Shown: piece after piece, positions 52,986-55,650 of the stretch
How the letters are laid out: every line of letters starts with the position of its first letter
Position numbering within the stretch: position 1 is the first letter of the stretch
Source of the DNA: Pseudodesulfovibrio sediminis
GTDB taxonomy: Bacteria; Desulfobacterota; Desulfovibrionia; Desulfovibrionales; Desulfovibrionaceae
NCBI RefSeq assembly: GCF_020886695.1
Contig: NZ_AP024485.1
Location: 195,001-259,000, forward strand
Direction: 5' to 3'
DNA: 64,000 nt
Made by a program: the position numbers and the translations under genes
Notes under the pieces: generated by a model
What the model saw: only the letters and a program-made list of their open reading frames with translations
What the model was told of the DNA's origin: nothing
The model's database searches: none

Positions 52986-53417
52986 TTACATTGCGTACAG
53001 CTTGTCGCCGGGGATGGTGGCGATGCCGTTTTTCTGCAAAAGTTCAATGCCCTGATCTGTACGATCAAAGCGGAAGATCAGAACAGCTGAGTCTCCTGAC
53101 TGACGGACGAATGCGTACATGTATTCCACATTGATACCGGCATCCTGCAGCATGCTCAGAATGTTGTGCAGTCCGCCGGGGGCGTCAGAGACTTCGACGG
53201 CGACCACAGAGGTACGACCGACGGTGAATCCGGCTTCCTTGAGTTTTTCCTTGGCTTTGTCAAAATCGGATACGATCAGGCGCAGAATGCCGAAATCCGA
53301 TGTGTCCGCAAGAGACAGGGCGCGGATGTTGACATCGGCTTCGGATAGAATGCGAGTGACTTCGGCCAGACGACCGGAGCGGTTTTCCAGAAATATGGAG
53401 AGTTGATTGACTTTCAT
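52986..53417 (-). CDS. Tandem ACT-domain protein
   Basis: 143 residues made of two ACT domains: [20 protein letters not shown] in the first, and [20 protein letters not shown] in the second. ACT domains bind small ligands, usually amino acids. Proteins of this form very often accompany paaK-type ligases. GGAG precedes the ATG. It follows paaK by 29 bases on the same strand and is therefore under the same attenuated leader (54785-54905). An amino-acid or aryl-acid sensing role is inferred. Confidence 0.92.
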
Positions 53418-53446: not shown

Positions 53447-54742
53447 TTATCTGTTGTCGATGATGCGCTTGGCTTTTCCCATGGAGCGCTCAATGGTTTT
53501 AGGTTCAACCAGTTTGACCTTGGCTGTGACGCCGAGGAATTCTTTGATATTTTTCATTACCTTTGATTCCACACGCTGTAAACTCTTGATCTCGTCCGAG
53601 AACATGGATTCGTTCACTTCCACCTGTACTTCCAGGGTGTCGAGGTTGCCATGGCGTTCGACGATGAGTTGGTAGTGCGGGGTAAGCCCTTCAGTTTCGA
53701 TGAGAATGGATTCGATTTGGGACGGGAAGACGTTGACACCGCGGATGATGAGCATGTCGTCAGAACGGCCGGTGACGCGTTTCATGCGGGCTGTTGTGCG
53801 GCCGCATATGCACGGTGTGGTGTTCAGGGTGGTCAGGTCGCGGGTGCGATACCGAATCAGCGGGATGCCTTCCTTGGTCAGAGTCGTGAAGACCAGCTCG
53901 CCTTCTTCGCCAGGAGCAACGGGTTCGCCGGAGACCGGGTCAATGGTCTCTGCCAGGAAGTGGTCTTCCTGAATGTGCAGGCCATCCTGCGCTTCGTGAC
54001 ATTCAATGGCAACGCCTGGTCCCATGATTTCTGAAAGTCCATAAATATCAATGGCCTTGATGCCGAGTTTCTTCTCGATTTCAAGACGCATTTCATTGGT
54101 CCACGGTTCTGCGCCGAAGATGCCGATGCGCAGTGGCAGATCGCGGATATCAATACCCATATCCTCGCCGGTTTCAGCCAGGAACAAAGCGTAGGAGGGG
54201 GTACAGCAGATGACATCCGGGGCAAAGTCCTTGAGCAGAGTGACCTGTCTGCGAGTGGCTCCGCCGGAGATGGGAATAACGGTCGCGCCCAGGGCTTCAG
54301 CGCCGTAGTGCGCTCCCAGCCCACCAGTGAAGAGGCCGTAACCGTAAGCGTTGTGCACGGTGTCGGATGCGGATGCACCAGAGGCCACCAGGGAGCGGGC
54401 CATAAGCTCTCCCCAGTTCTTGATGTCGCGGGCAGTATAGCCAACGACCGTCGCGGTACCCGTGGTACCGGAAGAAGAGTGGATGCGGACGATCTGGTCC
54501 TTGGGAACAGCGAACAGCCCGAAGGGGTATTGGTCGCGCAGATCCTGTTTTACCGTGAACGGCAACAAGGTGATGTCTTTAAGGGACTTGATATCTTGAG
54601 GTTTGATCCCTTTTTCATCAAATTTTTTCTTGTAGAACGGGACGTTGGCATAAACCCGTTCGCACACGGCCTGAAGGCGTCTTAACTGGAGTTTTTCCAG
54701 GTCCTCTCTGGGAAGGGTCTCTTGTTGTACGTCGTAAATCAC
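53447..54742 (-). CDS. paaK: Phenylacetate-CoA ligase
   Basis: 431 residues of the adenylate-forming PaaK family, which activates phenylacetate or related aryl acids with ATP and CoA. The AMP-binding P-loop [16 protein letters not shown] is near 95-110, [15 protein letters not shown] near 230-244, and the hinge Arg-Asp in RYRTRDL plus the C-terminal lid ([19 protein letters not shown]) are complete. The GTG at 54742 is chosen: AAGGAGG stands six bases upstream. An ACT-domain gene follows. The leader holds a Phe-rich reading frame and alternative hairpins, implying attenuation by phenylalanine supply. Substrate could be phenylacetate or indole/hydroxyphenyl acetate. Confidence 0.93.
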
Positions 54743-54784
54743 CTTAAACCTCCTTGGGCGGTCTGGATCGACCATATTGTCCAC

Positions 54785-54813
54785 TAAAAAACCACGGTCA
54801 GTAAGCCCGTGGT
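54785..54813 (-). terminator. Attenuator terminator upstream of paaK
   Basis: On the minus strand ACCACGG, nine bases, CCGTGGT, then TTTTT. It lies 43 bases before the paaK start, with no gene between. It therefore terminates within the leader unless the first arm is captured by the upstream strand at 54844-54851. Confidence 0.75.
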
Positions 54814-54843
54814 CAGGTCGGCGTTATCTTCGCCTGAAAATCT

Positions 54844-54869
54844 CCACGAGCGGCCTAAATGGTGCTCAT
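54844..54869 (-). promoter_or_regulatory. Antiterminator and anti-antiterminator strands of the paaK leader
   Basis: Minus-strand GCTCGTGG (54851-54844) can pair over eight bases, one G-T, with CCACGGGC (54812-54805), which contains the first arm of the terminator. The intervening CAGGCG/CGCC...CTG pairing extends this hairpin. The same strand can instead pair GCTCGT with ATGAGC (54869-54864), which lies right after the Phe codons. The three pairings exclude each other in the order of a classical amino-acid attenuator. Confidence 0.65.
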
Positions 54870-54905
54870 AAAGAAGAAAGTACGCGAAAATAAGAAATTT
54901 TTCAT
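54855..54905 (-). CDS. Phe-rich leader peptide of the paaK operon
   Basis: A 16-codon frame reads MKNFLFSRTFFFMSTI and stops with TAG. Five of sixteen residues are Phe, three of them consecutive codons (TTC TTC TTT), as in the pheA and pheST leaders of enterobacteria. The three-Phe run lies directly before the strand that controls the antiterminator. The ribosome site is weak (GGGG about 14 bases upstream), and the promoter is not certain; TTGACG at 54941-54936 is the best -35 candidate. Too short for standard gene finding. Confidence 0.65.
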   Translation of the reverse strand: MKNFLFSRTFFFMSTI

Positions 54906-55062
54906 AGCGAAAAGAGTGCCCCATGTTGCAAATTGCGTCAAGGGGTTTATCCTTTGTGACAGGCGTACATCGGGGAATATCTGTCTTTTGATGGATGAAT
55001 GTGACATTGCAGAGTGAAGCAAAGTACATTACATCCTGTTCGATGTCGAAAAAGGAGGCCGT
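54906..55062. other. Divergent upstream region of paaK and the nitroreductase gene
   Basis: This 157-base stretch should contain promoters for both directions. I see TTGACG on the minus strand (54941-54936) without a good -10, and TTGTGA on the plus strand near 54954. No further gene is visible here. Confidence 0.35.
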
Positions 55063-55650
55063 ATGCAGTTGAGAGAGCTGATGGAACTGAATCGGACAAG
55101 ACGAAAATTCGATCAGTCACAGCCCATTGATGTCGGAACGTTGGAGGCGCTGGTGGAGCTGACGCGTTTCATGCCATCCGGGATGAACAAGCAGCCGCTC
55201 AAGTATATAGTCACAACAGAGCCGGATCAATGTGACGCCATATTTCCTCTGCTTGGATGGGCCGGATATCTTCCGGACTGGAAAGGCCCGGATAAGGGCG
55301 AGCAGCCGACCGGGTATATCATAATGATGCTTGATACTGCGATTGCGGATTCGCCCGGCTGTGATCATGGCATTGCGTGTCAGTCCATAATGCTCGGTGC
55401 CGTTGAGCAGGGGCTGGGCGGATGCATCATCGCCACGGTGAACAGGAAAAAACTGGCCCGGATATTCGACCTTGACGACAGGTTTGAGATCCTTATGGTG
55501 CTAGCGCTTGGTGTTCCGGCTCAGGAAGTGGTAATAGAACCTCTTCCCTCTGACGGCGACATCAAGTATTGGAGCGGAGAGAACGGCAGACATCATGTGC
55601 CGAAACGGAGTCTGGATGAGCTTCTGATTGGGCGATTCCCAGCGAAATAG
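55063..55650 (+). CDS. Nitroreductase-family flavoprotein
   Basis: 195 residues. The N-terminal RTRRKFDQSQPI with the FMN-phosphate-binding Arg cluster, the SGMNKQPLKYIV segment and the C-terminal GGCIIATVNRKKLARIF and ALGVPAQE motif mark the family. Members use FMN and NAD(P)H to reduce nitro compounds, quinones or flavins; the physiological substrate is unknown. AAAGGAGG precedes the ATG. rsfS begins 19 bases after it, so the following genes may be co-transcribed. Confidence 0.92.
   Translation: MQLRELMELNRTRRKFDQSQPIDVGTLEALVELTRFMPSGMNKQPLKYIVTTEPDQCDAIFPLLGWAGYLPDWKGPDKGEQPTGYIIMMLDTAIADSPGCDHGIACQSIMLGAVEQGLGGCIIATVNRKKLARIFDLDDRFEILMVLALGVPAQEVVIEPLPSDGDIKYWSGENGRHHVPKRSLDELLIGRFPAK

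Follow-up and report, generated by a model that had tools for sequence, protein, structure and literature searches.

A predicted leaderless phenylalanine attenuator before a paaK-ACT operon, and related leaders before aroA' and symporter genes

From an attenuator one can read what a cell is lacking at the time it needs a gene expressed. The best-known role of PaaK enzymes is in the breakdown of aryl acids, and the locus considered here places a Phe-rich leader frame and a terminator before a paaK-like gene. What would the cell be short of when this gene is read? A sequence-only reading of the window (the whole stretch of 64,000 nt that was analysed, to which coordinates refer unless said otherwise) had taken the leader for a Phe attenuator. 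This interpretation is supported, in that relatives keep both the frame and the alternative pairing, and the leader in the window shows the predicted switch when a ribosome is modelled into its folding. I conclude, with considerable confidence, that a ribosome-mediated transcription attenuator sensing charged tRNA-Phe controls the paaK-ACT operon, that it probably has a leaderless start, and that the same device stands before aroA' and a symporter.

The leader, its promoter and the genes it precedes

The elements of the paaK leader all lie on the minus strand. The leader peptide frame, MKNFLFSRTFFFMSTI followed by the stop codon TAG (54855..54905), has 16 codons, running from an ATG at 54905 to a TAG that ends at 54855, and reads M K N F L F S R T F F F M S T I. 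Five of the codons specify Phe (three TTC and two TTT). Directly after the Phe run comes the protector strand ATGAGC (54864..54869), able to pair with GCTCGT, and after the stop codon comes the antiterminator strand GCTCGTGG (54844..54851), which forms 8 of 8 pairs with CCACGGGC (54812-54805). The latter is the strand common to two helices, being also the 5' arm of an intrinsic terminator, GACCACGG...CCGTGGT and then T6 (54786..54814), that stands just before paaK and is recognised from sequence, folding and covariation. Its hairpin consists of ACCACGG, a loop of 9 nt and CCGTGGT, with T6 ending at 54786; it is absent from the list of the automatic terminator scan because that scan permits loops of 8 nt. 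Thus the five-Phe frame of 16 codons, ATGAGC, GCTCGTGG, CCACGGGC and the hairpin with its T run are all where the sequence-only reading had put them, on the minus strand. The folding energy of the leader is -41.8 kcal/mol, as compared to -27.2 +/- 3.4 for shuffled sequences (z -4.3; reached by 0 of 200 shuffles). An Rfam search of the leader gave two matches at E up to 10, both below the gathering score and neither over the leader, hence no match to the T-box or to any other curated Rfam family.

Upstream lies a predicted promoter, with the -35 element TTGACG (54936..54941, minus strand) and, at a spacing of 17 nt from it, a weak -10 position, CACTCT (54913..54918, minus strand), where relatives have CAATAT, CAATCT or CATTAT. 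A consensus promoter scan of the window did not call the paaK leader promoter (the -10 is weak). TTGAC is common before paaK in the family, occurring 40-330 nt upstream in 144 of 148 upstream regions, followed after 15 to 17 nt by GGCA in 98 of the 148 and by either GGCA or TGCA in 126. The promoter-like consensus of these 148 regions is steadier just before the -10 than within it, and a regulator site may overlap the promoter consensus.

About 36 nt separate the start of TTGAC from the leader ATG, which has no Shine-Dalgarno site. Given the 17-nt spacer and the -10 hexamer, the RNA is predicted to start at the ATG or within a few bases of it. The arrangement is general among 83 leaders of the regulon described below: the distance from TTGAC to ATG is 34-40 nt (47 leaders at 36 and 19 at 37, in a search that allowed 33-40), and any match to a Shine-Dalgarno site extends to at most 4 nt in 80 of them, as compared to 6-7 nt at 34 of 37 paaK starts. 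Promoter spacing makes it probable that the window leader is read from a leaderless RNA. The weakness of its ribosome site had been considered the main doubt about the leader frame; a Shine-Dalgarno site is indeed missing, and the doubt finds its answer in the predicted RNA 5' end, which coincides with the start codon or nearly so. The 83 leaders also carry a coding signal, with 518 Phe codons in frame, as against 258 and 298 in the other two frames, and with C in pyrimidine tracts found 19, 37 and 180 times at codon positions 1, 2 and 3, respectively, tallies that are not independent, since the leaders are related.

The gene that follows (53447..54742, minus strand) encodes a paaK-like arylacetate-CoA ligase with domains PF14535 and PF00501. 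It matches TIGR02155 (PaaK) over its full length with 628.4 bits, below the curated cut-off of 646.3. Its start is the GTG at 54742, preceded by the Shine-Dalgarno site AAGGAGG (54749..54755, minus strand), and the open reading frame listed from 54784 is an upstream extension. The second gene of the probable operon (52986..53417, minus strand) encodes a tandem ACT-domain protein (PF19571), and in 29 of the 30 family loci looked at an ACT gene lies 28-112 nt downstream of paaK on the same strand. Divergent from the operon is a gene of the nitroreductase family (55063-55650, plus strand; domain match to PF00881). Among named relatives, the closest found is L007, an uncultured Pseudodesulfovibrio whose ligase is 85% identical. 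Elsewhere in the same genome, far from paaK, is the gene for the alpha subunit of indolepyruvate oxidoreductase (iorA; 742.8 bits against a cut-off of 650.9). No Phe leader was seen by eye in the 420 nt upstream of iorA, nor in the 420 nt upstream of each of two paralogous ligase genes, L002 and L003.

Leaders and pairings in related genomes

Of 199 genomes in the family, 174 gave paaK relatives in a protein search at E <= 1e-100, and 148 upstream regions, taken from the matches listed, were read. A leader was counted if it had at least three Phe in 12 codons, an ATG 33-40 nt from TTGAC, and a terminator. By this rule 28 of the 148 regions, from four genera, have the leader: 14 of the 17 regions from the window's genus (g1), 9 of the 15 from g7, 3 of 3 from g13 and 2 of 3 from g28, with 0 of the 110 from elsewhere. 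One more, L121, satisfies the rule for Phe and lacks a terminator. Under a stricter rule, at least five identical residues in 12 codons plus a terminator, 19 of the 148 regions qualify with Phe and none with any other amino acid. Examples of the paaK leaders of the family are MHKTLFLRSFFFMSLH, MIKLFFFRFFFFMGLP, MINHIFFPFFFFFFFKTEI and MQESTSPLCFTGFFFGFFFRRPIQPVA; the architecture recurs in other genomes while the sequence has diverged. Frame length is held, at 15-17 codons in 15 of 17 leaders of the window's genus and at 19 codons in 8 of 9 leaders of g7. The residues before the stop differ among genera (MSLH, RTEI, QPVA), and the Phe run is the part kept between them. Neither Tyr nor Trp occurs in 11 of the 17 paaK leaders of the window's genus.

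Homologues without the frame had been put forward as evidence against a Phe attenuator, and they are numerous: 120 of the 148 paaK regions have no such leader. The 28 that do keep the device show it to be restricted to some lineages, and I do not regard the reading as refuted by the rest. Within or near the window's genus there are leaders with merely one or two Phe codons (L092, L100 and L101 of g1, and the relatives L007 and L292), and some relatives seem either to have lost the Phe run or never to have had one. Five loci of g29 (L107, L111, L127, L151, L161) have a terminator-like hairpin before paaK with the Phe frame absent or nearly so, possibly a product of attenuator decay. A subgroup of g7 (L118, L119, L163, L175, L187, L188) has no leader ATG at the usual place, and for L187 and L188 the scan still gives a terminator despite the missing ATG.

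The two competing helices were assessed in 26 paaK leaders. In the terminator helix 98.9% of cells are paired, and two-sided changes occur at 3 of 7 pairs, in 16 cells; none of 500 shuffles reaches that number of cells and 8 of 500 reach that number of pairs. In the antiterminator helix 95.7% of cells are paired, and covariation within this paaK set is not above that of shuffles, 86 of 500 reaching the same level. The alignment that had been proposed as a check therefore bears out the Phe frame and the covariation of the terminator in relatives, and within the paaK set does not give covariation of the antiterminator beyond shuffles. One leader, L105, alters all three strands together, from C-G to U-A. 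Across the regulon, 73 of 83 leaders keep at least 7 of the 8 antiterminator pairs. At pair 4, 29 of 30 paaK leaders have C-G and 17 of 17 symporter leaders have U-A. At pair 6, U-A is found in 25 of 30 paaK leaders, C-G in 17 of 25 aroA' leaders, and U-G in the remaining members of these two sets. These differences are support, not proof, because the motif search favours paired strands.

The protector is another matter. The pairing of ATGAGC with GCTCGT, part of the original proposal, is present in the window and has been seen in its genus only. There, in 14 sequences, 94% of its cells are paired. In g1 the strand ATGAGC follows the Phe run, while in g7 a different strand, AACCAC, precedes it, and covariation of the protector was above shuffles in neither. 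The antiterminator of g13 and g28 falls within the leader frame, so that the ribosome itself would cover it; the same holds for the position of the antiterminator in 27 of the 28 aroA' and symporter leaders that have a terminator from a strict scan.

Folding was also examined with a modelled ribosome, on the assumption that it blocks the bases up to 13 nt past the first base of the A site. The window leader forms the terminator (mean pairing 0.998) both without a ribosome and with one at the stop codon. With the A site at Phe10, Phe11 or Phe12, the pairing of the antiterminator is 0.99, 0.74 and 0.52, respectively. The folding of alternative structures that had been suggested thus gives the predicted outcome, a terminator with the ribosome at the stop and an antiterminator with the ribosome stalled on Phe10-12.

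A wider test took the 78 of 83 regulon leaders that contain three or more Phe or Tyr. At equilibrium and with the hairpin complete, 15 of the 78 switch, as against 12 of 1950 shuffles. The signal is evident, but as few leaders switch at equilibrium, most would depend on pairing during RNA synthesis, a property of classical attenuators as well. When folding was carried to the end of the terminator loop, the 5' arm was paired upstream in the stalled state and not at the stop in 72 of 78 leaders and in 479 of 1560 shuffles. Loop-end folding was adopted after the equilibrium test and separates leaders from shuffles less well, and since the leaders are related neither number is a probability. By loop-end folding without a ribosome, the antiterminator is favoured in 68 of the 78, and these would read through in the absence of translation; the window leader is among the other 10.

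A common device before aroA', symporter and paaK genes

A covariance model was built from 26 paaK leaders only, blind to the genes downstream. In the genome that contains the window it found three further leaders. The best of them (L246; own genome 813498-813635, plus strand; E 6.4e-4) consists of a Phe/Tyr-rich leader, MHNITARFFFFFSYYFRNACGLGVH, and a terminator, with the same TTGAC spacing, before aroA', the gene for 2-amino-3,7-dideoxy-D-threo-hept-6-ulosonate (ADH) synthase (TIGR01949, 389.7 bits against a cut-off of 299.45). Another (L247; own genome 467371-467520, plus strand; E 0.0038) has a Phe-rich leader, MNTNQNRFSFFFFFSFRFFRSACGSEVCM, before an operon of a small frame and a sodium-solute symporter, for which no NCBIfam model scores above cut-off. 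The third match (L248; own genome 3512238-3512303, minus strand; E 0.0072) is weaker and partial, with a leader containing Tyr, Phe and Trp, MMNTTSSNAYFSNYYFGYWFSRARGLGRGAV; it precedes a second aroA' (TIGR01949, 387.0 bits, above cut-off) that heads a cluster continuing with 3-dehydroquinate synthase II and then chorismate mutase/prephenate dehydratase (pheA). The presence of pheA means that the ordinary route to Phe exists in this genome. Four other matches in the genome (L249-L252, at E 0.015, 0.66, 1.05 and 4.1) have no Phe-rich leader and were set aside; the weakest match in the genome has an E-value of 8.3.

Looking more widely, the model matches somewhere at E <= 0.01 in 95 of 288 genomes of the family, including 35 of the 36 listed that share the window's genus. 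Throughout the class, 77 of 348 genomes have a match at E <= 0.001, and the 12 that are outside the family all belong to the same order. Sixty matches were examined for their neighbors: 36 are followed by aroA', 18 by the symporter and 5 by paaK, and 1 by none of these. The last (L314; G120, contig 21, 669742-669871) has no aroA', symporter or paaK in the 2 kb downstream. Four of the five paaK matches (L322, L324, L330, L334) come from two other families, and in them Phe and Tyr are mixed, as in MQSRNFPFLFSFYYFFYFCVKLGSGG and MNQTFTTFSLFYFYFFTFAHKGESVVSA. In 13 of the 60 matches no ATG was picked up by script at the distance from TTGAC; L322, on re-inspection, has one at 36 nt. The remaining twelve, most of which precede aroA' in other genera and families, may lack a leaderless start.

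These results suggest that paaK is a member, with aroA' and the symporter, of one Phe/aromatic attenuation regulon. The attenuator reading at paaK is well supported, and the device there is no isolated oddity but one of this set. The link to aromatic supply is clear for aroA', and it is by association only that it extends to paaK-ACT and the symporter.

Proposed mechanism, alternatives and known systems

I propose that the RNA starts at the leader ATG or within a few bases of it and that a ribosome loads on the leaderless end. When Phe-tRNA is plentiful the ribosome would reach TAG and cover GCTCGTGG, and CCACGGGC would then fold into the terminator. When Phe-tRNA is short the ribosome would stall on the Phe10-12 run, covering ATGAGC and leaving GCTCGTGG free to pair with CCACGGGC before the terminator is complete, so that transcription goes on. 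Because the same device stands before aroA' and the symporter, paaK would be switched on together with the supply of aromatic amino acids.

That the frame is translated at all might be questioned. The Phe run could be a by-product of T-rich sequence round a plain terminator, in an untranslated leader with no Shine-Dalgarno site, for TTT means Phe in any T tract; a terminator without a Phe run does occur in several species. This would leave unaccounted for the enrichment of Phe in one frame, the C placed mainly at third positions, the start codon at a near-fixed distance from TTGAC and the constant frame length, and I consider it extremely unlikely. A translated leader might instead begin at an upstream start or belong to a longer RNA. 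In the window itself the TTG of TTGACG lies 36 nt from the ATG in the same frame, and among the 83 spacings 49 are multiples of three; however, the other 34 are not, so no upstream in-frame start is conserved, and a start so close would overlap the predicted promoter. I judge this version distinctly unlikely, if less so than an untranslated leader.

Other alternatives accept the attenuator and differ about its use. PaaK may be catabolic, the leader responding to an excess of Phe or aryl acid by arrest of the nascent peptide, as in tnaC, and so turning the operon on. The best-known role of such enzymes in aryl acid breakdown points this way, as do the alike pre-stop residues in g7 (RTEI or KTEI in several) and the 68 of 78 leaders that favour the antiterminator without a ribosome, whose termination depends on translation. 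The window leader, however, forms its terminator with the ribosome at the stop codon; it is the Phe run and not the pre-stop residues that genera have in common; and the biosynthetic aroA' carries the same device. Taken together, these make a catabolic, arrest-driven operon very improbable. An operon that supplies some other arylacetyl-CoA (of hydroxyphenylacetate or indoleacetate) or another product, with Phe-tRNA a mere proxy for aromatic starvation, is unlikely but carries more weight. It would suit a ligase that scores just below the PaaK cut-off and the mixture of Phe and Tyr in leaders of other families, though not the paaK leaders of the window's genus, of which 11 of 17 do without Tyr and Trp.

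If the leader is a Phe attenuator of the starvation-responsive kind, the simplest view of a gene that answers a shortage of Phe-tRNA, by a switch in common with aroA', is that it serves supply. Phenylacetate would be converted to phenylacetyl-CoA, then by an indolepyruvate-type oxidoreductase to phenylpyruvate, and then to Phe. With pheA present, the ligase would provide a second route, from external phenylacetate. I put the chance of this anabolic direction, which is argued from regulation, at about even. The regulon likewise suggests that the substrate of the symporter is Phe or an aryl acid. The wider picture is more tentative and falls a little short of even odds: an order-wide, mostly leaderless Phe/aromatic regulon that brings together paaK-ACT, a sodium symporter and the entry step catalysed by the archaeal-type aroA' product, in which PaaK-ACT and the symporter would form a salvage branch taking up aryl acids such as phenylacetate and building Phe, the reverse of the role in the gene's name.

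A Phe attenuator common to paaK and aroA' turns an annotation that is ambiguous between breakdown and synthesis into a testable prediction, and the regulon gives a first clue to the substrate of a symporter that has no NCBIfam name above cut-off. The leaders also make up a natural collection of leader peptides, probably leaderless, in which the protector comes in three designs. In them a single attenuator design can be followed across a bacterial order, with several targets, rewired and in places missing.

Searches of a collection of open-access papers found none that combines Desulfovibrio with a leader peptide and either a Phe attenuator or transcription attenuation, nor one linking phenylacetate-CoA ligase with a leader peptide and attenuation. 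In an RNA-seq study of D. hydrothermalis, a cluster from aldolase to trpF falls together with pressure, and a table of that study names no paaK (PMC4162548), which weighs on neither side. Mechanistically this is a familiar type of switch; within the reach of these searches, its target, the regulon and the probable leaderless design are new.

Methanogens can make aromatic amino acids from aryl acids by way of indolepyruvate oxidoreductase, a route on which the literature searches gave no title. The pathway considered here, proposed from regulation alone, would resemble it in that synthesis would employ an arylacetate-CoA ligase together with an oxidoreductase of the indolepyruvate type. The leader peptide tnaC, inducible and acting through nascent-peptide arrest, likewise stands before a gene of aromatic-compound metabolism. 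It differs from the present leaders, which have a run of regulatory codons and an intrinsic terminator and from which read-through is expected on starvation. The Phe attenuators of enterobacteria, pheL-pheA and pheM-pheST, are closer, having a Phe-rich leader peptide, an antiterminator and a terminator with one common strand, and the position of the ribosome as sensor. Unlike them, the present system has an arylacetate-CoA ligase as target, a start predicted at the 5' end of the RNA, three protector arrangements and no Rfam match over the leader. In passages of one account, pheA attenuation is named for E. coli and other gammaproteobacteria, and attenuation for Shewanella as well, with no mention there of paaK or of a leader peptide (PMC5343134). 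A precedent for the start is the trpL leader (rnTrpL) of Sinorhizobium meliloti, belonging to trpLE(G), whose RNA is described as leaderless, beginning at the ATG of the leader peptide (PMC7298713). The present leaders are predicted from sequence to begin in the same way, at the RNA 5' end. S. meliloti trpL senses Trp, and in that distant bacterium it serves trpLE(G), whereas the leader described here would sense Phe and serve paaK.
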